A stretch of 64,000 nt of DNA from Sneathiella chungangensis (GTDB lineage: Bacteria; Pseudomonadota; Alphaproteobacteria; Sneathiellales; Sneathiellaceae), in assembly GCF_009882935.1 (NCBI RefSeq), contig NZ_WTVA01000001.1, positions 510,238-574,237 of the forward strand, read 5' to 3'. The notes beneath the pieces are model-generated. The model had not been told where the DNA came from and ran no database searches. It worked only from the letters and a program-made list of their open reading frames with translations. The position numbers were made by a program, and so were the translations under genes. Shown here piece after piece: positions 5,343 through 41,869 of the stretch (position 1 is its first letter; every line of letters begins with the position of its first letter).

Positions 5343-6269
5343 CTATGGAGGCGTTACATCTGAATTCCCGATAGAGCCATCATTCCTAAGTTGTGGTTCA
5401 AGTCTCTCAATGATTGTTTCTGCTTTTGCTACCAGAACATCCTCCCGCGCCTGAAAGTGCTCAAATATTTTCTCAAGAGACCTAATTCTATGCGGTTGCC
5501 CCGCTATCCATGGATGAAGCTGTAATGTCATGACGCGTGCGCCATGTTGGCTGGCCTCTGTACTGAGAACATTCACATATTGAAGCACTTGATCCGCCCA
5601 ACGAGGAGAGGTGTAGTTCAACTGCTCCATCGCCCATTTGTCGCTTAGTTCGTAACTGCCGGGCATCGCGATCAGGTTCTCATCTGCCAGATCAAAGCAA
5701 TAGGGCCTGTCATCATTCGACCAATCAAATTGATACTTGATCCCATGTGAGGCAAGTATGCGGGGAGTATGATTTGATTCTGAAGATTGAGGAGATAGCC
5801 AGCCTGTTACTTTACTTCCAAATGTACTCTCCAGAATTTGCAGGCTTTCACCAACGACCCGGCTCTCTTCTTCATACCCAAGGTCGTTTGTGAAAAGGAC
5901 ATTCATGTTACTTCCATGCCCAATGATCTCACAGGCGGCATCGCGCATTTGATTAACGAGGGGCTCGAGCTTTGCTAGAGAGGCATTGAATGCGACGGTA
6001 GCTGGAAAATCAAACTTACCCAGCGTTTCAAGGATGCGGAAAATACCTACCCGCACTCCGTAATCATACCGGCTTATATCCCATAAATTGGGATACTCTC
6101 CGGCCTGCCCGGAAACCGGAAAATGTTGCAAAACCGGCAGTATCACAACCGCAACTTTAGCCCCACCGGGTAGTACTAGAGGTGGGCGAGAGAAGCTATT
6201 GGAAAAACTGAAGAGACCATGATCATAGCCTTTTCTGCGATATTCATATTGGAGATAGTCAGCGTCCAT
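5343..6269 (-). CDS. PuuE-like polysaccharide deacetylase/cyclic amidohydrolase, copy 2
   Basis: 308 residues in the NodB-fold group that includes the allantoinase PuuE. Family blocks are visible: IIGHGSNMN, GWLSPQSSESNHTPRIL, YQFDWSNDDRPY and LHPWIAGQPHRI. I chose the ATG at 6267-6269 because a GGAGG lies just upstream and the length then matches the neighbouring paralogue; longer readings run deep into that gene. It overlaps the upstream paralogue by 11 bases. The block that reads SPSITPT in copy 1 is SPQSSES here, so this copy may have changed specificity or act as a partner subunit. Likely reaction: opening of a cyclic amide or deacylation; the substrate is unknown. Confidence 0.85.
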   Translation of the reverse strand: MDADYLQYEYRRKGYDHGLFSFSNSFSRPPLVLPGGAKVAVVILPVLQHFPVSGQAGEYPNLWDISRYDYGVRVGIFRILETLGKFDFPATVAFNASLAKLEPLVNQMRDAACEIIGHGSNMNVLFTNDLGYEEESRVVGESLQILESTFGSKVTGWLSPQSSESNHTPRILASHGIKYQFDWSNDDRPYCFDLADENLIAMPGSYELSDKWAMEQLNYTSPRWADQVLQYVNVLSTEASQHGARVMTLQLHPWIAGQPHRIRSLEKIFEHFQAREDVLVAKAETIIERLEPQLRNDGSIGNSDVTPP

Positions 6270-28848: not shown

Positions 28849-31011
28849 TCAGCCGGCCGATCTTTCCACGGAACTGATGACGGGATCCGCCCTGAGCGCC
28901 GCAATGATGTTCGTCAGATGCCGGACATCCTTGACCTGGATATCGATCATCATCTCGAAAAAATCCTGGCTCCGATTGACGATCGCCAGATTATTGATAT
29001 TGCCGTTGTTGGAGGCAATGGTCGAGGTAATACCGGAGAGCGCCCCGGGTTCATTGGCCATAATGATCGAAATGCGGCCGACGGGAAGCGCCGCCTGCTG
29101 GTTTTCCTCATCCCAGGAGACATCAAGCCAGCGCTCCGGCACGTCCGCAAACTGCTCCAGCGTGTCGCAATCGATGGTATGGATGGTGACGCCGCGCCCG
29201 GTGCTGACGATCCCGACAATGCGGTCGCCCGGCAACGGATGGCAGCAACCGGCGAGATGCATCGCCATCCCCGGGATCAAGCCGCGAATGGGAATGGCGT
29301 GCGAATTTTTCCCGCTCGGCTTCGATTTCGCTTGCTTGAGCGGAACGACATTTTCATTGTCGATTTTGCGTTTTTCACCAGGGAATATGACGTCGATCAG
29401 CTGGCGCCCGGTCCGCGTCCCGTCGCCCAGCATATAATAAACATCATCAACCGTTTCCTGGTTCCAGACATCGACGGCCGTCTGCATCGCCTTTTCGGCG
29501 AACTGCTTTCCTTCCACCCGAAACGCCTTCTCGGCGATCGCCCGGCCAAGCTCGACATACTGGCCCCGCTGCTTCATCCGGGTGAACCGGCGGATGGCGG
29601 AGCGCGCCTTGCCGCTCACCACGAAACTTTCCCAGGTCGGCGACGGCGTCTGGTTCTTCGATCGCAATATCTCGACCTGATCGCCATTGCGAAGCGGCGT
29701 TCTGAGCGGCACCAGGCGGCTGTTGATTTTCGCGCCGACGCAGGTATTGCCAACATCCGTATGGACCGCATAGGCGAAATCGACCGGGCTGCTTCCCTGC
29801 GGCAGGGAGATCAGGTCGCCCTTCGGCGTGAAACAGAACACCTGGTCCTGGAACATGCTGAGCTTTGTATGCTCAAGAAACTCATCCGGATCGACGGTAT
29901 TTTCCAGAATTTCAAGCAGCTCCCGCAGCCAGCGATATTGCTTGCCCTCCTTGATATGCTCCAGATCCTGTTTGTACTGCCAGTGGGCCGCCACACCATA
30001 TTCATTGGTCTGGTGCATTTCCCGGGTACGAATCTGGACCTCGATGCGCTTCTTCTCTGGTCCGATGATGGTCGTATGAATTGATCGGTAATTATTCCGC
30101 TTAGGGATTGAGATGTAATCCTTGAACCGGCCGGGAACCATCGAATATTTTGAATGCAGAATGCCGAGGACATGGTAACAGTCCTCTACCGTCTCGACGA
30201 TGATGCGAAACGCGATGATGTCGGCCAGTTGCTCGAAGGAGACGTTATTCTTCTCCATCTTCCGCCAGATCGAATAATAGCGTTTCTCGCGGCCGTAAAT
30301 ATCCGCATCGATTTCCGTCGTTGCGACATCCTTTTTCAGGGCATCAACGATGCGGTCGACGAGATCCTCCCCCTCTTCGCGCAAATATTCCAGCCGCCGC
30401 TTGATCGAATTCCGCGCTTCGCTGTTCAGCTCGATAAAGGCGAGATCCTCAAGATCGTCGCGGAAATTCTGCATACCGATCCGTTCGGCCAGCGGCGCAT
30501 AGATTTCCATCGTCTCGGTGGCGATCCGTTTACGCTTTTCCGGGTTCTTGATGAAATGAAGCGTCCGCATGTTGTGCAGCCGGTCGGCAAGCTTGACCAG
30601 CAACACGCGGATATCGTTCGACATGGCGAGGAGGAGCTTGCGGAAATTCTCCCCCTGCTTGGTCTTGTCCGACTGCAGTTCAATCTGCGACAGCTTGGTG
30701 ACACCATCGACAAGCGCGGCGATTTCGCTGCCGAATATCTCCTCGATCTGCTCCTTCGTCGCGACCGTATCCTCGATCGTGTCATGCAGAAGGGCCGTCA
30801 CGATGGTCGCCGTGTCCAGCTTGAGCTCGGTCAGGATGCCGGCGACTTCGATGGGGTGGGAAAAATAGGGGTCGCCCGAGGCGCGCACCTGGCTGCCATG
30901 GGCTTTGACGGTAAAAATATAGGCCCGGTTGAGCAAGTCCTCATCGGCTTGAGGATCATAACTCAAGACGCGATCGACAAGTTCAACCTGGCGCAACATC
31001 AGCAGCGACAA
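28849..31011 (-). CDS. rsh: Bifunctional (p)ppGpp synthetase/hydrolase (RelA/SpoT homologue)
   Basis: 720 residues, full length. Domains in order: HD hydrolase (about 25-180, with ALLHDTIEDT and the metal HD pair), synthetase (about 240-350, with YRSIHTTIIGPEKKRIEVQIR), TGS (about 385-450, FCFTPKGDLISLPQGSSPVDFAY), a helical middle with CCHPLPGDRI, and a C-terminal ACT domain. Both active-site motifs look intact, as expected for the single alphaproteobacterial Rsh. It makes and degrades the alarmone controlling growth under starvation; DksA is also encoded in this window (56315). It sits downstream of rpoZ. Confidence 0.97.
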   Translation of the reverse strand: MSLLMLRQVELVDRVLSYDPQADEDLLNRAYIFTVKAHGSQVRASGDPYFSHPIEVAGILTELKLDTATIVTALLHDTIEDTVATKEQIEEIFGSEIAALVDGVTKLSQIELQSDKTKQGENFRKLLLAMSNDIRVLLVKLADRLHNMRTLHFIKNPEKRKRIATETMEIYAPLAERIGMQNFRDDLEDLAFIELNSEARNSIKRRLEYLREEGEDLVDRIVDALKKDVATTEIDADIYGREKRYYSIWRKMEKNNVSFEQLADIIAFRIIVETVEDCYHVLGILHSKYSMVPGRFKDYISIPKRNNYRSIHTTIIGPEKKRIEVQIRTREMHQTNEYGVAAHWQYKQDLEHIKEGKQYRWLRELLEILENTVDPDEFLEHTKLSMFQDQVFCFTPKGDLISLPQGSSPVDFAYAVHTDVGNTCVGAKINSRLVPLRTPLRNGDQVEILRSKNQTPSPTWESFVVSGKARSAIRRFTRMKQRGQYVELGRAIAEKAFRVEGKQFAEKAMQTAVDVWNQETVDDVYYMLGDGTRTGRQLIDVIFPGEKRKIDNENVVPLKQAKSKPSGKNSHAIPIRGLIPGMAMHLAGCCHPLPGDRIVGIVSTGRGVTIHTIDCDTLEQFADVPERWLDVSWDEENQQAALPVGRISIIMANEPGALSGITSTIASNNGNINNLAIVNRSQDFFEMMIDIQVKDVRHLTNIIAALRADPVISSVERSAG

Positions 31012-31095
31012 GACGTGCAGGCGCCGTCTCCCTCCTGCTGAACCCTATGGCTTACTTTGAAATCGGTACTGGCGTCGAAACTAAAATCCGCTGAT

Positions 31096-31135
31096 CCCGG
31101 CATTTTCCGAACGGGTATGGGTTGTAAATGCCGGG
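31096..31135 (-). terminator. Stem-loop between rpoZ and rsh
   Basis: Two 10-base arms, CCCGGCATTT and AAATGCCGGG, pair perfectly around a 20-base loop, in the gap between the rpoZ stop and the rsh start. There is no strong T run on either side, so it is not a textbook intrinsic terminator. It could be an attenuator or a processing site between the two genes. Confidence 0.35.
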
Positions 31136-31152
31136 CTTTACCTGTGTTCCAC

Positions 31153-31557
31153 TCAATTATCAGCGAACGGGTCATCGGCGTTCGTTTCTTCAGCCGGCGC
31201 GCCCTCAACCGTTGCGCCGACTTCATCGGCTGAAAAGGTTTCTTCAGTCGTGTTTTCCTGAATGACACCTGCCCATTCATTACTTGCGCTCATCAGGGCG
31301 GCCATATTGTCTTCTTCCGGCTCGTCCACCTCGACGCGGCGCTGCAACGAATGCACGAGATGATCCTTCAACTCGTCAAGATCGATGGTGCCATCGCCAA
31401 TCTCGCGCAAGGAGACCACAGGGTTCTTGTCATTGTCCCGATCGACGGTCAGCATGGAGCCAGCGGCGATTTCCCGCGCCCGGCGGGCGGCCAGCAGGAC
31501 GATCTCAAAACGGTTCGGTACTCTTTCAACGCAATCTTCAACGGTGACGCGTGCCAT
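31153..31557 (-). CDS. rpoZ: RNA polymerase omega subunit
   Basis: 134 residues. The N-terminal core [20 protein letters not shown], followed by [10 protein letters not shown], is the omega signature. The C-terminal extension is acidic and of low complexity ([20 protein letters not shown]), commoner in alphaproteobacteria. Omega supports assembly of RNA polymerase and helps form a ppGpp binding site, which suits its position upstream of rsh. Confidence 0.96.
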
Positions 31558-31686
31558 TTACAGTAACTCCAATTGTCTGTGATTTAGCTTACTACATATT
31601 CGTTTGCGTATCAGATAGCAAGTCTAAGTGACATAAAAAACCCCTTGAAAATCGGCACTTTTCGGTCACCGCGTCGCATTTTCGCA

Positions 31687-32205
31687 TCATGTCGGGACAT
31701 CGCCGGCGCGAATAATGTCAAATACCTGTCCGTCAGGCAGCTCCTTGAGGAGTTCCGGCGCCGTCTTTCCACTTACCGGATGGCGCCAGTCCGGCGCGAT
31801 TTCGGCAATGGGCGCGAGAACAAAAGCCCGGGTCTCCAAGAGTGGGTGCGGGACAACGGGGCCGGAGATTTGATCTGTGTTTTCCGTGACTTGGTCATGA
31901 TAGGCCAGAAGATCGAGGTCAATCAGCCGCGCCGCCCATTTTTCCCGGCGGACCCGCCCGAACTCGGCCTCGATATCATGCAGCAAATTCAACAGGTCAG
32001 GTGCTGGCAATTCCGTCTCGATATGGACAACAGCATTTGCGAACCAGGGTTGATCGGAAAGAGGGACCGGCGCGGTGCGATACCAGCTCGATTGCCCGAC
32101 CAGGTTAACCGACGAGGCGAGCCTGCGGACCGCGGCGGCCAGGGTTTTGACCGGTTCGCCATGGTCCGGATGTGGCATATTTGCCCCTAAACCAATCAAA
32201 ATCAC
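31687..32205 (-). CDS. folK: 2-amino-4-hydroxy-6-hydroxymethyldihydropteridine diphosphokinase
   Basis: 172 residues. The start MILIGLGANMPHPDHGE matches the family opening, and the signature near the middle reads RLIDLDLLAYHD. The block PHPLLETRAFVLAPIAEIAPDW is typical. The enzyme pyrophosphorylates the pterin before dihydropteroate synthesis in folate biosynthesis. It is separated from rpoZ by about 130 bases, in the same direction, and faces the NYN gene on the other side. Confidence 0.95.
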   Translation of the reverse strand: MILIGLGANMPHPDHGEPVKTLAAAVRRLASSVNLVGQSSWYRTAPVPLSDQPWFANAVVHIETELPAPDLLNLLHDIEAEFGRVRREKWAARLIDLDLLAYHDQVTENTDQISGPVVPHPLLETRAFVLAPIAEIAPDWRHPVSGKTAPELLKELPDGQVFDIIRAGDVPT

Positions 32206-32386
32206 CTAAATTTATCCTTAAAAACCACGAAAAAACCAAGGTTTTCGCATCATTTCACCATAATTGGCGCACCGCCGCGTAATTCTTATCTAGAGAATTA
32301 CCAATAATTTTGCTATTGATGAATGATTAGGGAGCGTTAGCGACCGTAACAAGAATTATTTATAATATAAAGTGCGGAAATTGGTA

Positions 32387-32992
32387 ATGCCATTTTACTC
32401 AGAAGAGCGAATTGCTCTTTTCATCGATGGATCGAACCTGTATGCGGCCGCCCGGGCACTTGGTTTCGACATCGACTACAAGAGATTACTGAGCGAATTC
32501 GCTTCGCAGGGCAGACTCGTCCGGGCATTTTACTACACCGCCCTTATCGAGGATCAGGAATATTCCCCGATCCGCCCGCTTGTCGACTGGCTCGATTACA
32601 ACGGCTACACCATGGTCACGAAGCCGACCAAGGAATTTACCGATTCCGCCGGTCGCCGCAAGTACAAGGGAAATATGGATATCGAGCTGGCCATCGACAT
32701 GATGGAACTCGCCGGCCATATCGATCACGCTGTGCTGTTCTCGGGCGACGGTGATTTCCGCCGGCTGGTGGAATCAATCCAGCGTCAGGGCGTCCGCGTC
32801 AGTGTCGTCAGCACAGTCAAGTCGCAGCCGCCCATGATCGCCGACGAGCTTCGCCGACAGGCCGATTTTTTCATTGAACTCAAGGATATGGAAAAGAAGG
32901 TCGGCCGCGCCGTCAGCCAGAAATCCGACCGGGAATTTGAGGATTACCCCGGCGAATTCGATCCCTATGAGGACGCCGAGGAGATCGCCTGA
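32387..32992 (+). CDS. NYN-domain (LabA/DUF88) protein
   Basis: 201 residues from ATG 32387 (MPFYSEERIALFIDGSN); an upstream GTG adds five. The NYN fold is clear: IALFIDGSNLYAAARALG at the start with the first Asp, then GNMDIELAIDMMELAGHIDH and VLFSGDGDFRRLVESIQRQG, which carry the other acidic residues of PIN-like nucleases. Such proteins are thought to be RNases acting on structured or tRNA-like RNA. Transcription starts near a TATAAT at 32361-32366. It is divergent from folK. Its target is unknown. Confidence 0.9.
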   Translation: MPFYSEERIALFIDGSNLYAAARALGFDIDYKRLLSEFASQGRLVRAFYYTALIEDQEYSPIRPLVDWLDYNGYTMVTKPTKEFTDSAGRRKYKGNMDIELAIDMMELAGHIDHAVLFSGDGDFRRLVESIQRQGVRVSVVSTVKSQPPMIADELRRQADFFIELKDMEKKVGRAVSQKSDREFEDYPGEFDPYEDAEEIA

Positions 32993-33022
32993 CCGGCGGC
33001 AACCTCCCCGACTGTCAGCGGG

Positions 33023-33682
33023 TTATTGTCCCCTCTTCAATTCTTCCGTTATCTTTGCGGAAATACCCTGCATGCCCGCGGTCGCGCTTTGTTGCCAGTC
33101 ACTATCGAAAACCGCAGAATGTTTTGTGACGATTTCGTTGAGCACCGTTACGCCCTTGTCTAATTTTCCTGTTGGCGCCTTGAGAGAGACTTCTGCCCGG
33201 TTCCGCACGCCAAGCTCCCAGAAGCCCCATTCGATCCATGACCAGAATTGTATGATCTTCGCATCGACGGGAACGGCATTTTCATATCCGGGATCGCCCG
33301 GCTCGATTACGCGGTAGCCCGCGGATCGGAAAGCATGCATTAGCGCCCTTCTCATAATCCCCGCGACGGTTTGGCCTTCCGGCAGGATGACATCGCCAAG
33401 GGCCTGCCCGTAGGAATTTCTTTTTCTCGCGAAAGCCCTTGCCTTGATATCTGTATTGGCAATTTCACTTTCCGAGAGCGAGGGTATATCAGGGGTCGCC
33501 GGCTTGAATTCGAAAACACGGTCATCCGTTACGGTAACCAGTTTTACCTCCACCCCATTAACGGGATTAGAAATATCTTCCGGTGCCTCAACCGAAACGG
33601 TGCTGCGGTCAACCGCGCACGCGGAAAGCCCCATCAGAAAAATGAAAATGAAAAAAATTCTTACTTTTTGCGAAATCACCAT
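33023..33682 (-). CDS. YajG-like lipoprotein
   Basis: 219 residues with a lipoprotein signal (FFIFIFLMGLSACAV). The mature domain contains a long helix (VAGIMRRALMHAFRSAGYRV), a beta region around PVDAKIIQFWSWIEWGF, and VRNRAEVSLKAPTGKL. The pattern resembles the YajG family of outer-membrane-associated lipoproteins of unknown function, sometimes found near flagellar or cell-wall genes. The match is by general layout only. It ends 30 bases from the NYN gene, convergent with it. Confidence 0.6.
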   Translation of the reverse strand: MVISQKVRIFFIFIFLMGLSACAVDRSTVSVEAPEDISNPVNGVEVKLVTVTDDRVFEFKPATPDIPSLSESEIANTDIKARAFARKRNSYGQALGDVILPEGQTVAGIMRRALMHAFRSAGYRVIEPGDPGYENAVPVDAKIIQFWSWIEWGFWELGVRNRAEVSLKAPTGKLDKGVTVLNEIVTKHSAVFDSDWQQSATAGMQGISAKITEELKRGQ

Positions 33683-33995
33683 TGTTCCCCTCTTCTATCA
33701 AAAAAATAATCTACCGGTGCAATATACCCCGGTATTTTTCTCGAAATAGAGGTATTTCGGGGCCGCAGCAATCAAAAAAATGCGGTTTCAAGACATTGTC
33801 ATAGGTCTCCTTGATCGATGCCTTGAATTTTTTCTTAGGAAGTAGGGTCGAATTATGGCTACAATAATCACGGCATTTTTGACAGAGAATGCCAATTCGG
33901 TAAAAATTTTGCGTCTATTTTTAATGCGGCCTTGCAATGCCACGCCGCCTTTCGTACCCGGTTTGCTATAATTGTCTGGATTAAGAGGGGAAGTT
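33683..33995. other. Intergenic region between lipoprotein and DUF2235-PilZ gene
   Basis: 313 bases between divergent genes. Apart from the extended -10 promoter near its right end (reported separately) I see only AT-rich sequence and a short unconvincing frame of 38 codons (33855-33971) that overlaps the promoter. No repeat, hairpin or RNA gene is evident. Confidence 0.5.
33964..33972 (+). promoter_or_regulatory. Extended -10 promoter of the DUF2235-PilZ gene
   Basis: TGCTATAAT, a perfect TGNTATAAT extended -10 hexamer, ends 23 bases before the ATG at 33996, which is itself preceded by GAGGGGAAG. There is no good -35 at the usual distance, consistent with an extended -10 promoter. Confidence 0.55.
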
Positions 33996-35354
33996 ATGGC
34001 CCGAAAACTTGTGGTCCTGAGTGACGGCAGCTGGATTGCCCCGCAGTTCAGAAGCAAGAACCGGCGCGTTCCCGGGAACGCGACCCTCGCCTATCAATGC
34101 ATTGCCGAAGAAACGGGAGACGGCGCGGAACAGATCCGGTATCTGCACGATCTGGAAGCCCGCCCGGCCTTCTACCGCCGACTGATGCAGCGGACTTTCG
34201 GGCTCGGGATGAAGGCGGAAATTTTTAACAGCTACACCTTCCTGTCCCGGAATTACCACTCCGAAGAGGATGAGATTTACCTGTTCGGCGCCGGTCTTGG
34301 CGCCTTCAACATCCGCCGCCTCGCCGATCTGCTCGACAGGGTCGGACTGTTGCCGCCCGAAAAGCTCAATCTGCTGCCGGAGGCCTTCGAATACAGCCAG
34401 ATCCCTGCCGAAGCCCTTGAAACGCCGGGCGCAAAAAGCCTGGCCGACCACCTGCCGGCGAAATCCGTGCGCATCCGTTTTCTCGGCTGCTGGGATACGG
34501 TCGGCAGCCATGGTTTGCCGCTGCCGGGACTTCATCGCATCTCGCAAAGCTGGATGATGTACCATGACCACAAGATCAATGCGAATGTCGAAAGCGCCTA
34601 TCAGGCGCTTGCCCTGGATGAACGGCGCAGCCGTTTCAAGCCCGGCCTCTGGACGGGTGTACATTCCCCTGAAATCCAGACGGTTGAGCAGGTCTGGTTC
34701 CCCGGATCCCATGAAAATATTGTCGGCGGTCGGCGCGACAGCCGCCTGTCCGATATCGCCCTGCGATGGTTGCTGGACCGGGCCGGCGAACAGGGCCTCG
34801 CCATCGATCCTGAAAAACTGGCCGAGCTCACAACGCCGGACATCCTTGGCAAGATCGCGATGAACCGGCGGAAGGTGTTCGGCATTCCCCTGCCCTTCAA
34901 GAAGCCCTTCAACCGGGCCGTCGGACAATCCCGGCAAAGCTTTCCCGGGGAACTTAATCTGGAGCCGGAAAAACTTCATGAATCCGTTCTGCAACGGCGG
35001 GAGCTCGACAAGAAATACCGCCCCCGGCAGCTCGCCAGTCTGTCGGACAGCGATATCCCGCTCTACCGCGAGCATATGGACGAAATGGTGAACAAGCGCC
35101 GCTTCCCGCGCAAGAAAATCGACTGGCCGGCCTTCATCATCACGAACGAGACGAAGATGAACGTCAGCCTTGTCGATTACAGCCGGACCGGCGCGAAGAT
35201 CTGGTTGCAGGGAAAGCTGCCGGCCGGGACGTCTCTCGTGCTGCAGTCCTCCCGCGATTTTTCGAAGGGTCTCAAGGGCCGCGTTGTCTGGGCTAAGGAT
35301 AATTTCCTCGGGCTCGAGTTCGCGAAACCGCTCCCCAAGGAGGCGACGGCCTAG
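33996..35354 (+). CDS. DUF2235 hydrolase-like domain fused to a PilZ domain
   Basis: 452 residues from ATG 33996 (MARKLVVLSDGSW). Residues 1 to about 290 follow DUF2235: LVVLSDGSW, DEIYLFGAGLGAF, LGCWDTVGSHGLPLPG, ALALDERRSRFKPGLW, QVWFPGSHENIVGG and LSDIALRWL. At the nucleophile elbow the family reads GFSRGAY; here it is GAGLGAF, so the serine is replaced by Gly100. The last 90 residues are a PilZ domain with both c-di-GMP motifs, RRFPR and DYSRTG. It is thus a probable c-di-GMP-responsive protein whose hydrolase-like part may have lost esterase activity. It lies just upstream of smpB, which is on the other strand. Partner unknown. Confidence 0.8.
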   Translation: MARKLVVLSDGSWIAPQFRSKNRRVPGNATLAYQCIAEETGDGAEQIRYLHDLEARPAFYRRLMQRTFGLGMKAEIFNSYTFLSRNYHSEEDEIYLFGAGLGAFNIRRLADLLDRVGLLPPEKLNLLPEAFEYSQIPAEALETPGAKSLADHLPAKSVRIRFLGCWDTVGSHGLPLPGLHRISQSWMMYHDHKINANVESAYQALALDERRSRFKPGLWTGVHSPEIQTVEQVWFPGSHENIVGGRRDSRLSDIALRWLLDRAGEQGLAIDPEKLAELTTPDILGKIAMNRRKVFGIPLPFKKPFNRAVGQSRQSFPGELNLEPEKLHESVLQRRELDKKYRPRQLASLSDSDIPLYREHMDEMVNKRRFPRKKIDWPAFIITNETKMNVSLVDYSRTGAKIWLQGKLPAGTSLVLQSSRDFSKGLKGRVVWAKDNFLGLEFAKPLPKEATA

Positions 35355-35358
35355 TTTC

Positions 35359-35811
35359 TCAGGAGAAGTTTTTCAGCAGGCGCTGTTTTTCACGGCCCCA
35401 GTCGCGTTCGCGTTCCGTCGCCCGCTTGTCATGCTGCTTCTTGCCTGATGCCAGCCCGACCTTAACCTTCACAATGCCGCGGTCGTTGAAATACATGGAG
35501 AGCGGCACAAGCGTCTTGCCCGCCTTCTGTATCTGACCGGCGATCTTCTTGATTTCCTTCTTATGCATCAGCAACTGGCGCGGCCGCAGCGGATCGTGAT
35601 TGAACCGGTTGCCATGTCCATATTCAGGAATATGCAGATTGACGAGATACAGGCCGTCATTTTCAAAAGACGCATAGGCGTCCTGAATGTTGGCCCGCCC
35701 GGCGCGCAGGCTTTTCACCTCCGTACCGAGCAGGATCAGACCCGCCTCAAACTCTTCATGGATGAAGTAGTTATAGCGGGCCTTCCGGTTTTCCGCGATC
35801 GTGCGGCCCAT
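35359..35811 (-). CDS. smpB: SsrA-binding protein SmpB
   Basis: 150 residues. Starts MGRTIAENRKARYNYFIHEEFEAG, then LILLGTEVKSLRAGRANIQDAY, and ends DKRATERERDWGREKQRLL, the basic tail that mimics a codon-anticodon stem in the ribosome. It brings tmRNA to stalled ribosomes for rescue. It ends a few bases from the stop of the DUF2235-PilZ gene (convergent), and the next gene upstream is dapA. No ssrA gene is visible in the window. Confidence 0.97.
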   Translation of the reverse strand: MGRTIAENRKARYNYFIHEEFEAGLILLGTEVKSLRAGRANIQDAYASFENDGLYLVNLHIPEYGHGNRFNHDPLRPRQLLMHKKEIKKIAGQIQKAGKTLVPLSMYFNDRGIVKVKVGLASGKKQHDKRATERERDWGREKQRLLKNFS

Positions 35812-35829
35812 GTCTGCAATCCACTCTAT

Positions 35830-36708
35830 CTAGTTCAGGACACCCGCGTCGCGCATGGCGGCCTCTATCTCGCGCTTGGACTCGTCGCGGAACACGGGGA
35901 TGATGGGCAGGCGCACATCGGGTTTGCATTTGCCAAGCAGGGACAGGGCGTATTTCGTCGGTGCCGGGCTTGCCTCGATGAAGAGCGCCTTGTGCAGCCG
36001 GATCAGTCGGTCCTGAAGCTCAAGCGCCTTTTCGCTTTCGCCCGCAAGGCTTGCTTCCTGCATCTCCGAGACCAGCGCCGGCGCGACATTGGAGGTTACG
36101 GAAATGCAGCCGCAACCGCCTTGCGCGTTATAGCCAAGCGCAATCGGGTCATCACCGCACAGCTGGATAAAATCCTCGCCGCAGTGAATGCGCTGAAGCG
36201 CCGCGCGGGAAACATCGCCGGTCGCATCCTTGACGCCGACGATATTTGCCAGTTTGGCAAGGCGGCCCATCGTCTCCGGCGTCATATCGACGACGGAACG
36301 GCCCGGGATATTGTAGATATAAATCGGAATATCCACCGCGTCGTTGATCGCCTTATAATGCGCGAACATACCTTCCTGGGTCGGCTTATTATAATAGGGC
36401 ATGGCGACAAGCACCGCATCGGCGCCGGCCTTTTTCGCATGCTTGGCAAGGCGGATAGCCTCCGCCGTATTGTTCGAACCCGCGCCCGCCATAACCGGCA
36501 CGCGTCCTGCCGCCGCCTCGATGCAGAGCTCGACCACGCGGTCATGCTCGGGATGGCTCAGGGTCGGGGACTCGCCGGTCGTCCCGACGGGGACAAGCGC
36601 TTTCGTTCCGGATTTTATTTGCCAGTCACAGAAGGATTGAAACGATTTTTCATCCACGCGCTCTCCATCAAAGGGAGTGACAAGCGCTGTGATCGATCCT
36701 CTAAACAT
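35830..36708 (-). CDS. dapA: 4-hydroxy-tetrahydrodipicolinate synthase
   Basis: 292 residues. Opening [22 protein letters not shown]; the catalytic tyrosine is in [19 protein letters not shown], the Schiff-base lysine in [12 protein letters not shown], and the block [19 protein letters not shown] carries the reactive threonines. It condenses pyruvate and aspartate semialdehyde in lysine/diaminopimelate synthesis. It lies 19 bases upstream of smpB, same direction. In alphaproteobacteria this pair is common, next to soluble lytic transglycosylase genes, as here. Confidence 0.97.
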
Positions 36709-36960
36709 GACAATATCCTCGATAAGTTGGTTTTCCGTTTCCGCCTGGCATGCGATGGGCCTGCTTTCAAAAGACCCTTATTTTCACCTGCGGCAAACGC
36801 ATGATTTATAGGCATGATGCCGCGCATGGCAAGCGGTAACTGCATAAATCCCGGGCAGACCGGACCCATAATGACGATTTACGGCAACAAAGCAGGGTGG
36901 ATCGCACTTGATCATACCAATATCGGGGTTACATTTAGACTGTTCTCATTTTTGTAAAAG

Positions 36961-39600
36961 GTGTCCCCCTTGTCCAAGTCTCCCGCCGCGCATGCCACGA
37001 TTTACCTCAAAGATTATAAAGAGCCCGATTTCCTGATCAAGACGGTGGATTTGACCGTCGAACTCGGGGAGGCGGATACGATCGTCACCTCCCGCCTCGA
37101 TCTCGCGCGCAACAACGCCGCGGCGAAGAAACTGAGCCTCAACGGTGAATATCTCGAACTTGTTTCCGTTGCCATGGATGGGCGGACGCTCGAAGCGGCA
37201 GAGTATGAGGTCGACGGCAAGCATCTCACGCTGAACATACCGGCGAAAACGGACGGTTTTCACCTCGACATCAAGACCCGGATCAAGCCGCAGGAGAATA
37301 CGGCGCTTGAAGGACTGTACAAATCAAGCGGCAATTTCTGCACCCAGTGCGAGGCGCAGGGCTTTCGGCGCATCACCTATTATCTCGACCGGCCGGATGT
37401 CATGGCCGTCTTCACGACAACCATTATCGGCGACGCGACGCGATACCCTGTCATGCTCTCGAACGGCAACCTGACGGCGGAGAAAATTCTCTCCGACGGT
37501 CGCAAATCCGTGACCTGGCATGACCCGCATCCCAAACCCGCCTATCTCTTCGCGCTTGTCGCCGGGGATCTCGCAATGGTCGAGGACAGCTTTACCACCC
37601 GCTCGGGCCGGGACATCAAGCTCCGGATCTTTGTTGAAAAGGGCAATGAGGATAAATGCGGTCACGCCATGACCTCGCTGAAAAAATCCATGAAATGGGA
37701 CGAGGAGAAATATGGCCGTGAGTATGATCTCGATATCTTCATGATCGTCGCCGTCAGCGATTTCAACATGGGCGCGATGGAGAACAAGGGCCTCAATGTC
37801 TTCAACTCGAAATATGTGCTGGCCTCCCCGGAGACCGCGACGGATGCCGATTTCGACGGGATCGAGAGCGTTATCGCCCATGAATATTTCCATAACTGGA
37901 CGGGCAACCGCATCACCTGCCGCGACTGGTTCCAGCTTACCCTGAAGGAAGGGTTGACCGTCTTTCGCGACCAGCAGTTTTCGGCGGATATGAACTCCGC
38001 GGCCGTGCAGCGTATTGGCGATGTGCAGCGCCTGCGCGCCGCCCAGTTCCCGGAGGATGCCGGCCCCCTCGCCCATCCGATCCAGCCGCAAAGCTATGTC
38101 GAGATCAACAATTTCTACACCGCCACCGTCTATGAAAAAGGCGCGGAGGTGATCCGCATGATCCATACCCTTCTCGGCGAGGAGAAGTTCCGAAAAGGCA
38201 TGGACCTCTATTTTGAGCGCCATGACGGACAGGCGGTGACGACCGAGGAATTCGTCTCGGCGCTTGAGGGTGGCTCCGGCGTGGACCTCACCCAGTTCCG
38301 CCGCTGGTATGTAACGCCGGGCACGCCTGAAATTACGGTCAATGAAAAATTTGACGAGAAAACAGGTACTTACAAGCTCACTCTCCAGCAGAGTAACGCC
38401 AAGGCCGGTGCCGATTTCAAGCCGCTCCATATCCCGCTCCGGATGGGGCTTCTCGACGAGAATGGCAAAGCGATAGCCTTTACGGAGGGGCCGTTCAAAG
38501 GCAAGAACAGCGGCGTTTTCGATCTCACGAAAAAGCGGGAGACCTTCACCTTCGCGGGTCTAAAGTCGCCTCCGCGCGCCTCGCTCTTCCGTGGCTTTTC
38601 CGCGCCGATAAAGATCAACCAGCAAATGGACGATCGCGATCTCGCTTTCTTCTTCGCCAAGGACGAGGACCTTTTCAACCGCTGGGATGCGGGCCAGCGC
38701 CTTGCGAATAACATCATCCTGAAACAGATCGAGAAACAAGACGAAACCGCCGCCCTTCCCGAGGCGTTCATGGAGGCGTTTGCCGATATTCTCGCCGACA
38801 AGGATCTCGATCGCGCCTTTACTGCCGCCGCGCTTACTCTCCCCGGCGAGCAGGATATCGCACAGAAAATGCCGGTCGTCGATGTCGATGCCATCCACAA
38901 GGTCCGCGAAGGGGCAAGACGCCAGATCGGCCTCCGGTTCGAGGAAGAATGGCGGCGGCTCTACGACGAATGCAGCTGCGCGGCCGCGCCCGCGAACCAG
39001 CCGGAAAGCAGCAGCCGCAAGCTCAAGAACACGGCGCTCACCTATCTGATCGCGACGGGAAAGGAAGACTATGTCGGCCTCGCTGACAGGCAATACCGCG
39101 CCAGCGATAACATGACCGACAGCGTCGCCGCACTTTCCGGGCTTAAGGACATTACGCATCCCGTCCGCGAGGCCCTGTTCGCGGATTATTACGATAAATG
39201 GCAGAAAGATGCGCTCGTCATCGACAAATGGTTCATGCTGCAGGCCATGGCAGTACGCGCGAGCACAATTGCCGACGTCAAGGCGCTGATGGATCACCCC
39301 GCCTTTACCCTTCGCAACCCGAACCGGATGCGCTCCCTGATCGGTGCATTTGCCTCCGGCAACCCGGTCTATTTCCATGAGAGAAGCGGCGAAGGCTATC
39401 GCATCCTGTCGGGCGTGATTGCGGCGCTTAACAAGACCAACCCGCAGATCGCCGCCCGCCTCGTCGCGCCGCTCGGGCAATGGCGGCGGTATGACGCCGA
39501 ACGGCAGGGCCTGATGACGGCAGAACTCGAAAAAATCCTCAAATTGCCGGATTTATCAGATCATGTTTACGAAATGGCAAATAAAAGCCTGCATAATTAG
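36961..39600 (+). CDS. pepN: Aminopeptidase N
   Basis: 879 residues starting at GTG 36961, matching the usual PepN N-terminus (KSPAAHATIYLKDYKEPDF). The M1 motifs are GAMENKGLNVFNSKYVLA and HEYFHNWTGNRITCRDW, with the second zinc ligand in LKEGLTVFRDQ. The four-domain length is normal. It is a cytosolic zinc peptidase that removes N-terminal residues from peptides. A 250-base gap separates it from divergent dapA, and a soluble lytic transglycosylase gene follows. Confidence 0.97.
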   Translation: MSPLSKSPAAHATIYLKDYKEPDFLIKTVDLTVELGEADTIVTSRLDLARNNAAAKKLSLNGEYLELVSVAMDGRTLEAAEYEVDGKHLTLNIPAKTDGFHLDIKTRIKPQENTALEGLYKSSGNFCTQCEAQGFRRITYYLDRPDVMAVFTTTIIGDATRYPVMLSNGNLTAEKILSDGRKSVTWHDPHPKPAYLFALVAGDLAMVEDSFTTRSGRDIKLRIFVEKGNEDKCGHAMTSLKKSMKWDEEKYGREYDLDIFMIVAVSDFNMGAMENKGLNVFNSKYVLASPETATDADFDGIESVIAHEYFHNWTGNRITCRDWFQLTLKEGLTVFRDQQFSADMNSAAVQRIGDVQRLRAAQFPEDAGPLAHPIQPQSYVEINNFYTATVYEKGAEVIRMIHTLLGEEKFRKGMDLYFERHDGQAVTTEEFVSALEGGSGVDLTQFRRWYVTPGTPEITVNEKFDEKTGTYKLTLQQSNAKAGADFKPLHIPLRMGLLDENGKAIAFTEGPFKGKNSGVFDLTKKRETFTFAGLKSPPRASLFRGFSAPIKINQQMDDRDLAFFFAKDEDLFNRWDAGQRLANNIILKQIEKQDETAALPEAFMEAFADILADKDLDRAFTAAALTLPGEQDIAQKMPVVDVDAIHKVREGARRQIGLRFEEEWRRLYDECSCAAAPANQPESSSRKLKNTALTYLIATGKEDYVGLADRQYRASDNMTDSVAALSGLKDITHPVREALFADYYDKWQKDALVIDKWFMLQAMAVRASTIADVKALMDHPAFTLRNPNRMRSLIGAFASGNPVYFHERSGEGYRILSGVIAALNKTNPQIAARLVAPLGQWRRYDAERQGLMTAELEKILKLPDLSDHVYEMANKSLHN

Positions 39601-39682
39601 CCAAATTATCTGATAATATGACGCGAAGCGATATCAGATTGAGGAGCAGCTTTTAATTTCATTTGAGTGATCGGTCGGGGTA

Positions 39683-41869
39683 ATGCGAAAAGAGTTCACC
39701 TATGTGGCGCTAATAACCGGGACAATGCTTATCTCGTCGTCTCTGTCGGCGGCGGGCAAACCGGTCGCGATGCAAAATCCCGATGCCGCCACCATGAGCC
39801 GGGAAACACCGACCGAGTTTGATGCGGCGGACGGAGAGAGCGTTCCACTTCCTATCGCCAAACCCGATCTCGTCGAGCTTGCCCTGCTGAACGCCGATCT
39901 TCCCCCGATTCCGCAGAAACGCCCCGTCGGCACGGAGTTGCCGCCGCATCCGCTGGCAACCGGCCTGGTCGATGCGCGGGACCTGAAGCTTTACCGGGAG
40001 GCCTTTGCGCTCGCTGACAAGAGCCAGTGGAGCCAGGCGATGGAAATCGCCGGTCGGGCTAAATACAAGCTGCCGGCGAAGGTAATCGAATGGCGCTATA
40101 TGAGCGCCTATCGGAATTTTGCGAGTTTCGACCAGATTTCCCGCTTCATCGAAGAAAATCCGGACTGGCCGGGTTTGGGTACCTTGCGCCGTCGCGCTGA
40201 ACAGGCGCTTGATGAGCCCGTCGCCGCCGAAAGGCTGCTTGACTGGTTCGCTGGCAATGAGCCGATCACGGGCATCGGTATGTATCGCTATGGCGAGGCG
40301 CTGATCGCTTCGGGAAGGGCCGCCGAGGGCGCCAACTGGATCCGCCGCGCCTGGCATGTCGGCGAATTCCGTAAGGACATCGAGAAAGAGATACTGAAAA
40401 ACTACAGCGGCCTGTTGAGCAAGGCGGATCACGAACAACGCCTCGACCATCTGCTGTGGGAGCGGGAAACCGAGGCCGCGAAGCGCATGTTCCGCTTCGT
40501 GAGCGAGGGCTACAAGAAACTGGCGATCGCCCGGATCCGGCTGATGACGCGAAAAGGGAATGTCGATCAGGCCATCCGCGCCGTGCCAGCCGAACTCCGC
40601 GATGATCCAGGGCTGATATTCGAACGGGCGAAATGGCGCCGCCGCAAGGCCCTCGATGAAGAATCACGTGAACTGCTCTTCGAAGTGGACGACACCGTTC
40701 CGCGCGCCGATAAATGGTGGCCCGAACGACATGTGCAGGCCCGCAAGCTGCTGGCGATGGGGCATATTACAGACGCCTATAATCTGGCGAGCCGCCATGG
40801 CCTCACTGAGGGCGAGGATTTCGCCGCCGCGGAATGGCTGTCCGGCTGGATCACCCTCCGCTTCCTGGAAGATGGCGACGCGGCACTTCGGCATTTCACG
40901 CGCCTGTATGAAAATGTCAGCTACCCGATCAGCCGTGCCCGCGGCGCCTACTGGATTGCTCGGGCGAAAGAATCCCTCGGCGACAGGGTTATGGCGGAAT
41001 ACTGGTACAAGGTCGCGACGCAATATTACACGACCTATTACGGGCAGATGGCGCTGCATGAACTCGGGCAGCGGAAACTCCCGGCAATTCCGCAAATCAC
41101 GCTGGCAAAAAGTCTTGTAAGCGCCGATGTGGGCAGTGATGAGCAGGTTCTGATCGTCCGCCTTCTCACCGAAATCGGCGCGCCGAAATGGACAAAGCCC
41201 TTCCTGCTGGAAATGGCCGAAAAGGCGAAAAGTGAAGCGGATTACGTGGCGGTTGCGGAGCTGGCGAACAAGATCGGGCGGCCGGATTATGCGATTGCCG
41301 TCGCCAAACGCGCGTCGCAGCTCGGGACCGAACTGACCGAGATCAACTGGCCGACGCCGACGCTCGCGATCAAGAATCCGCCCATTGAACCGGCGCTGAT
41401 GCTCGCCATCACCCGCCAGGAAAGCGCGTTCGCCGCCGATGCGGTCTCCTGGGCCGGCGCGCGGGGTCTGATGCAGTTGATGCCGGGAACCGCCAAGGCC
41501 GTCTCCCGCCGGCTCAACCTGAACTACTCGCCCACCCTGTTGACCGCCGATCCATCCTATAACGCGATGCTCGGCAGCGCCTATCTCGCCAGCCTGATCG
41601 ACGAGTTCGGCGGCTCCTACGTGCTGGCCATCGCTGCCTATAATGCCGGACCCTCCAATGTCAAACGCTGGCTCAGGGAATGGGGCGACCCCCGCTCCGG
41701 CGATATCGACATGATCGACTGGATCGAGTTCATTCCCTTCTCGGAAACCCGGAATTATGTCCAGCGGGTCATCGAGAATTTGCAGGTCTACCGTGAACGG
41801 CTGGCCCGCGACGAGGGCAGCACCTTGAGGATCAGCTTTGACATCAACCGCGGCAGCGCAACGCGATAA
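39683..41869 (+). CDS. slt: Soluble lytic murein transglycosylase
   Basis: 728 residues. Signal-like start (MRKEFTYVALITGTMLISSSLSAAG), then a long helical superhelix region (about 90-520), and a C-terminal SLT domain: LMLAITRQESAFAADAVSWAGARGLMQL with the catalytic Glu, PGTAKAVSRRLNL, then NAGPSNVKRWL and ETRNYVQRV. It cleaves the glycan backbone of peptidoglycan to 1,6-anhydro ends in the periplasm. The next gene is an unrelated HAD hydrolase 80 bases on. Confidence 0.95.
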   Translation: MRKEFTYVALITGTMLISSSLSAAGKPVAMQNPDAATMSRETPTEFDAADGESVPLPIAKPDLVELALLNADLPPIPQKRPVGTELPPHPLATGLVDARDLKLYREAFALADKSQWSQAMEIAGRAKYKLPAKVIEWRYMSAYRNFASFDQISRFIEENPDWPGLGTLRRRAEQALDEPVAAERLLDWFAGNEPITGIGMYRYGEALIASGRAAEGANWIRRAWHVGEFRKDIEKEILKNYSGLLSKADHEQRLDHLLWERETEAAKRMFRFVSEGYKKLAIARIRLMTRKGNVDQAIRAVPAELRDDPGLIFERAKWRRRKALDEESRELLFEVDDTVPRADKWWPERHVQARKLLAMGHITDAYNLASRHGLTEGEDFAAAEWLSGWITLRFLEDGDAALRHFTRLYENVSYPISRARGAYWIARAKESLGDRVMAEYWYKVATQYYTTYYGQMALHELGQRKLPAIPQITLAKSLVSADVGSDEQVLIVRLLTEIGAPKWTKPFLLEMAEKAKSEADYVAVAELANKIGRPDYAIAVAKRASQLGTELTEINWPTPTLAIKNPPIEPALMLAITRQESAFAADAVSWAGARGLMQLMPGTAKAVSRRLNLNYSPTLLTADPSYNAMLGSAYLASLIDEFGGSYVLAIAAYNAGPSNVKRWLREWGDPRSGDIDMIDWIEFIPFSETRNYVQRVIENLQVYRERLARDEGSTLRISFDINRGSATR

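Follow-up and report, generated by a model that had tools for sequence, protein, structure and literature searches.

A DUF2235-PilZ fusion without the nucleophile serine in Sneathiella: a candidate c-di-GMP receptor built on a Tle1-like hydrolase domain

The window analysed here is a stretch of 64,000 nucleotides from the alphaproteobacterium Sneathiella chungangensis (assembly GCF_009882935.1, contig NZ_WTVA01000001.1, positions 510,238 to 574,237), in which one gene encodes a protein of 452 amino acids that joins a Tle1-like α/β-hydrolase domain (DUF2235) to a C-terminal PilZ domain (Table 1). An initial annotation, made from the sequence alone, had described this fusion, and both the limits given for the gene and the two domains stood, with Pfam scores of 188.7 bits for PF09994 and 34.5 bits for PF07238 against curated cut-offs of 27 and 22.5, respectively. 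Three other Sneathiella orthologs that were scanned reached PF07238 scores of 55.9 (L014), 51.0 (L020) and 22.3 (L012), the last one just under the cut-off. The aligned start position was found by a nearest-ATG script in all 19 orthologs with their 5′ end present, the window copy included. The AlphaFold2 model of the protein (pLDDT 86.6, pTM 0.76) shows a hydrolase domain whose best match in the PDB is the Tle1 structure 6ski_F (Z-score 19.7, root-mean-square deviation (rmsd) 4.1, 259 aligned residues), followed by TleB 9j3f (Z 17.1) and Tle1 4o5p_A (Z 16.8), and a PilZ domain that matches the c-di-GMP (cyclic di-GMP)-bound PA0012 structure 8u0i (Z 12.8, rmsd 1.5, 79 aligned of 85 residues). 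No family was assigned to the protein by NCBIfam, PADLOC or PHROGs, and single-sequence searches of the PDB gave nothing useful, their sole match being a weak one to myosin (E 0.93).

The most striking feature of the hydrolase domain is its nucleophile elbow, which reads GFSRGA in the family and GAGLGA in the window protein, with G100 modelled between a strand (residues 93-99) and a helix (residues 101-115). Catalytic triads have been assigned as Ser240-Asp280-His347 in TleB (PMC12421835, in the part of the article available) and as S248-D297-H375 in Tle1KP (PMC5649205, likewise), and the equivalent positions were taken from a 48-row profile aligned to PDB entries 9j3f and 4o5p, which puts the catalytic Asp within GxxDTV and the His within PGxHSDVGGGY. 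The nucleophile column of the profile, read in 204 rows that stem from 196 loci, contains 163 Ser, 32 Gly and 9 gaps, and every one of the 32 Gly rows belongs to Sneathiella, several of them being repeat fetches of one gene. Once deduplicated, Gly is found in 20/20 readable Sneathiella rows (L021, cut by a contig end, lacks the elbow region, hence 20 rather than 21 orthologs), and Ser in 144/144 readable rows among the 150 that are neither from Sneathiella nor known fusions, the other 6 having a gap. These comparison rows, gathered as best matches of searches with related profiles, are a sample of the nearer part of the DUF2235 family. Judging from this distribution, the change from Ser to Gly exceeds chance and the loss of the nucleophile is genus-wide among the readable Sneathiella genomes, which bears out the initial annotation on the missing serine.

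The missing serine does not come alone. Comparison of the family columns conserved in at least 85% of rows, filtered for Ser at the elbow, revealed that T12 of the DGT motif (141/141 in the family vs 0/20 in Sneathiella), Y50 (142/143 in the family), the G53 and G55 of the GVGT motif (143/143 and 140/143) and, in the GGGY motif, G243 (139/140) and Y246 are among the residues lost in Sneathiella, together with S100 and, in about half of the copies, R101. Among the family-conserved residues, D10, G98, G102, D167, W234, F235, H239 and G244 are retained, and with them the FLGCWDTVG and WFPGSH blocks that the initial annotation had listed as kept. Moreover, R19, S20, R23, V25, A32, G100 and R247 are newly invariant in the genus. 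No arginine but these three is invariant over profile columns 1-275, which correspond to about residues 1-280, and the segments that hold them come after the former active-site strand and the His motif. Y133, W186 and G221, for their part, are mostly common to the other PilZ fusions as well. Read from these alignments, the DGT, GVGT and HxxGGG motifs of the Sneathiella domain are eroded, and the loss of the nucleophile belongs to a broader change of the pocket.

In a scan of named genome contigs (best 80 of 573 relatives), the nearest relatives were those of Sneathiella, and matches to the protein occurred in 25 of the 60 genomes searched, its own included. An ortholog is present in 21 of 24 Sneathiella genomes (L002-L022, again counting its own), with identities to the window protein down to 37-38%. 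The gap in the other three is not evidence of loss, because smpB is cut by a contig end in G001, the contig of G012 ends about 0.4 kb after the NYN gene, and G005 yielded neither of the two neighbours. In genome G008, the ortholog (L022/L214) lies in two frames near residues 140-146, which points to an error in the assembly or to a recent break. Among the 8 closer orthologs, ratios of nonsynonymous to synonymous substitution rates (dN/dS) could be defined for 27 of 28 pairs in the hydrolase part and for 25 of 28 in the PilZ part, where they span 0.042-0.156 and 0.034-0.180, respectively, which places both domains under purifying selection. In this line, pseudogenization or decay was rejected in view of the low ratios in both domains (about 0.03-0.18) and by a locus that is constant in 17/17 genomes examined.

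The locus itself is part of the core genome, as the initial annotation had proposed: the order NYN, DUF2235-PilZ gene, smpB and dapA is identical in the 17 other genomes examined, out of 20 others carrying the gene. Neighbours with Pfam matches comprise RelA/SpoT, Rpb6, HPPK, NYN, SmpB, DHDPS, peptidase M1 and SLT. A gene for 219 amino acids on the minus strand (33023-33682) has no Pfam match, and tblastn finds its counterpart in 3 of 17 related loci at 49-66% identity. In the far Sneathiella clade the fusion keeps 38-42% identity, vs 70-81% for smpB and dapA, so the DUF2235-PilZ protein diverges faster than its neighbours. No copy was found in the 7-kb stretches beside smpB of ten outgroup genomes, and in G024, of the same family, and in G025 the slot between NYN and smpB holds a gene of the uracil-DNA glycosylase superfamily (PF03167), as if one gene had replaced the other on the Sneathiella stem. 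Some other Sneathiella genomes carry extra DUF2235 genes of other types, four of which (L027, L028, L029 and L031) have an intact GFSRGA; a Pfam scan of the first two found no PilZ in them. Although 124 plasmid records match the query, none spans 80% of it at one place, and no fusion was found there. Rfam gave nothing at the gathering threshold within 31000-40000, and promoter- and terminator-like sites occurred at chance level only.

Table 1. Features of the DUF2235-PilZ gene and of related loci. Positions are those of the window unless a locus is named.
Feature	Position	Strand	Basis or conservation
DUF2235/Tle1-like-PilZ protein	33996..35354	+	open reading frame, 452 amino acids, ATG start, Pfam
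Tle1-like α/β-hydrolase domain, residues 3-261	34002..34778	+	PF09994 T6SS_Tle1-like_cat (DUF2235), E 1.9e-55
Nucleophile elbow GAGLGA, residues 98-103, Ser to G100	34287..34304	+	alignment
D167, catalytic-Asp equivalent (FLGCWD)	34494..34496	+	aligned to Tle1 4o5p and TleB 9j3f; 21/21 orthologs
H239, catalytic-His equivalent (PGSH)	34710..34712	+	aligned to Tle1 4o5p and TleB 9j3f; 21/21 orthologs
PilZ domain, residues 366-448	35091..35339	+	PF07238, E 2.6e-8
RRFPR (RxxxR: R368, R372)	35097..35111	+	both Arg in 21/21 orthologs
DYSRTG (DxSxxG: D394, S396, G399)	35175..35192	+	D 21/21, S 20/21 (Cys in 1), G 21/21
NYN-domain gene, conserved upstream neighbour	32396..32992	+	PF01936, synteny
smpB, conserved convergent downstream neighbour	35359..35811	-	PF01668, synteny
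Uracil-DNA glycosylase superfamily gene	L225 4943-5608 (G024); L226 1880-2515 (G025)		PF03167
Fusions outside Sneathiella			Marinobacter L038, L040; Rheinheimera L042, L043, L048; gammaproteobacterial metagenome-assembled genomes L047, L059; L146, L176, L177, L178; Desulfuromonadaceae L104

Fusions of the same two domains were also found outside Sneathiella, and all 12 of those counted keep Ser at the nucleophile. Those of Marinobacter, Rheinheimera, the two metagenome-assembled genomes and Desulfuromonadaceae came as full-length matches from the scan of named contigs, among its best 80 of 573 relatives. The PilZ domain is above the Pfam cut-off in 7 of them (L040, L042, L043, L047, L146, L176 and L177) and under the cut-off of 22.5 in two (L038, 20.9, and L048, 22.3), while the assignment of the three in which Pfam reports none (L059, L104, partly masked with X, and L178) rests on alignment and motif. 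Left out of these counts were L110 and L131, whose regular-expression matches were regarded as PilZ-like strings arising by chance, and L054 of Rheinheimera baltica, where from position 5992 the fusion lies in two frames, its first piece reading GFSRGAYT; the three other Rheinheimera copies are whole. The fusions of both groups share the domain order, the triad Asp and His, the PilZ motif and Y133, which is present in 11/11 readable fusions outside Sneathiella vs 13/141 unfused relatives. Unlike the Sneathiella proteins, those outside the genus retain the serine and, mostly, the DGT, GVGT and GGGY motifs. As regards their frequency, full-length matches came from 5 of the 385 genomes drawn evenly from the class, all five being Sneathiella, and from 2 of the 398 drawn likewise from the phylum (G000 and G729), and 4 of 295 genomes of one order, gammaproteobacterial by its place in the tree, carry the fusion (G963, G893, G729 and G983).

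The trees, from which L021, L022 and L054 were left out, do not settle whether the fusion arose once. A 58-row tree, to which Sneathiella contributed 12 of its 19 full-length rows, placed the genus as one clade (100/100) on a long stem (0.97) and the 11 fusions from elsewhere, without L104, as another (98/95), L178 being flagged as a long branch. A clade with all 24 fusion rows has a p-value of 0.348 in the approximately unbiased test (p-AU) and a log-likelihood difference of 0.14, a clade of Sneathiella with five unfused relatives comes at equal cost (p-AU 0.35), and the FastTree support for Sneathiella and the other fusions as sisters was 0.097. Since the p-AU of both groupings is alike, a single origin is neither rejected nor shown, and one fusion followed by loss of the nucleophile on the Sneathiella stem would be the simplest story, not a proven one. 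The neighbourhoods of 8 fusion loci from outside the genus (7 gammaproteobacterial and 1 of Desulfuromonadaceae) showed no arrangement common between genera, and therefore offer no functional hint: Rheinheimera-type loci are alike, and between genera there are only scattered weak similarities among neighbours (about 24-31%). Downstream of the intact-serine fusions L042, L043 and L059, and convergent to them, there is an apparent ABC transporter pair, recognized by eye, with a third gene; two other genes intervene in L042, and the pair was not seen beside the Marinobacter copies. A model of the Marinobacter fusion was poor (pLDDT 55.0, from a seven-row alignment) and was not used.

A conserved lipase-like domain without its serine, next to a domain that resembles a c-di-GMP sensor, suggests an enzyme turned signal receptor. 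The explanation that we favour, with modest confidence, is that the former serine hydrolase now works as a c-di-GMP receptor, a non-hydrolytic protein whose binding of a ligand or partner would be controlled by c-di-GMP. The own genome encodes 9 matches to GGDEF domains, 8 of them above the cut-off, and 4 to PilZ. Binding of c-di-GMP would take place through R368/R372 and D394/S396/G399. In other PilZ proteins, the RxxxR loop and the linker become ordered upon c-di-GMP binding, and here the same event may reorder this loop and the linker at about residues 341-366, altering the exposure or the docking of the Tle1-like domain and, in this way, what that domain binds. Given the Gly at the nucleophile and the eroded motifs, the domain would do so without hydrolysis: its pocket, remodelled but with D167 and H239 kept and invariant arginines gained, would accommodate a ligand or a protein partner.

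Several observations weigh against this receptor. The invariance of D167 and H239 in the 21 orthologs exceeds the need of a pure scaffold, a Lys occupies the first hydrophobic position of an extended PilZ motif, and the dN/dS values, though far under 1, are rough, because dS is above 1 in most pairs. Moreover, in the part of PMC5649205 available, the S248A mutant of Klebsiella Tle1KP was still toxic and only D297A was impaired, so that losing the Ser need not abolish activity. These facts would fit the main rival, a protein that is still an enzyme, its Asp-His pair bypassing the covalent serine step by direct activation of water or the substrate, and its activity switched by c-di-GMP. The Asp and His persist while T12, G53, G55 and S100 are gone, and both domains are under purifying selection, but the near-invariant family motifs DGT and GVGT have been lost as well and Tle1PA, in the same part of that article, lost its activity with each of the triad changes, so we regard an active enzyme as unlikely. 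For TleB, the accessible part of PMC12421835 describes assays of S240A and H347A on lecithin. The calling of the protein catalytically dead by the initial annotation is supported as to the nucleophile and the pocket motifs but was too firm: turnover of a serine ester has most likely been lost from the Sneathiella domain, which falls short of certainty because of the invariant Asp-His pair and the toxic S248A mutant.

A second alternative is that c-di-GMP is not a ligand of the PilZ domain here and both domains form a constitutive scaffold or adaptor. The initial annotation had spoken of a full c-di-GMP site, and the ligand residues of its RRFPR and DYSRTG motifs are indeed kept in the 21 orthologs, with one Cys for Ser. 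It is the extended motif, defined as RxxxRhxh and DhSxxG (PMC8322970), that K373 breaks at its first hydrophobic position, one that varies among the orthologs and is hydrophobic in only some. Against this deviation stands the invariance of R368, R372, D394 and G399, with S396 missing from a single ortholog, and we rate a constitutive scaffold as quite improbable. Also improbable is a third reading, to which the newly invariant R19, R23 and R247 would lend themselves and in which the change from Ser to Gly turned the elbow, found as GAGLGA, GAGRGG and GSGRGA in Sneathiella, into a candidate glycine-rich turn for binding anions or nucleotides, making the protein a two-input sensor of a ligand in the old pocket and of c-di-GMP at PilZ. 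Finally, an antibacterial Tle1 phospholipase effector delivered by the type VI secretion system (T6SS), as the Pfam family name and the fold would have it, is extremely improbable and was rejected, since the own genome (99.98% complete) gave 0 matches to the sheath protein VipB, the only T6SS part searched (among 14 control genomes, the search matched in E. coli), no vgrG occurs among the neighbours with Pfam matches (33023-33682 having none), the serine is lost to G100, the protein is fused to a signal sensor, and the gene sits among housekeeping neighbours in a fixed NYN-smpB locus.

How this protein relates to known systems depends on which domain is considered. With the Tle1/TleB effectors (4o5p, 6ski and 9j3f) it shares the hydrolase fold (Z 16.8-19.7) and the positions of Asp and His, but it lacks the nucleophile Ser, carries PilZ at the C terminus in place of the module that Tle1 has there, and comes from a genome in which the VipB search found no T6SS sheath gene. 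The use of a former hydrolase pocket for sensing rather than turnover, as proposed here, has a counterpart in the plant receptor GID1, which has a hydrolase fold and binds its hormone in the pocket, although GID1 belongs to another family, has no PilZ, and takes its signal in the pocket and not, as presumed here, in a second domain. Among the known outputs of PilZ, on the other hand, small adaptors, cellulose synthase and flagellar brakes predominate. In the cellulose synthase BcsA (PDB entries 9fnn and 9b8v), PilZ is joined to a glycosyltransferase, and the available part of PMC10313047 describes CsdK1 and CsdK2 as PilZ-DnaK chaperones, with PilZ joined to a chaperone. In all of them, as in the window protein, PilZ is attached to a larger functional domain, which is here an α/β hydrolase without its nucleophile. 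The joining of PilZ to other functional domains was thus already known, and what is added here is the Tle1-like hydrolase as its partner. The literature on DUF2235, judged by titles, deals largely with T6SS effectors; that mentioning both domains, in the parts available, described no DUF2235-PilZ fusion, an earlier mention in Galperin and Chou 2020 being possible, and no literature match was found for Sneathiella together with c-di-GMP.

For annotation, the Pfam label of T6SS phospholipase effector is misleading when applied to this gene. Moreover, the list of PilZ partners gains a Tle1-like hydrolase domain in two states, one with an intact triad in Gammaproteobacteria and one Desulfuromonadaceae, the other with the nucleophile lost, and this second state spans a genus and is yet maintained by selection. 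With intact-serine fusions in other lineages, what looked like an isolated oddity becomes a branch that lost its nucleophile, and the pair of intact and lost forms offers a natural experiment on the passage from a c-di-GMP-linked enzyme to a possible non-enzymatic receptor.
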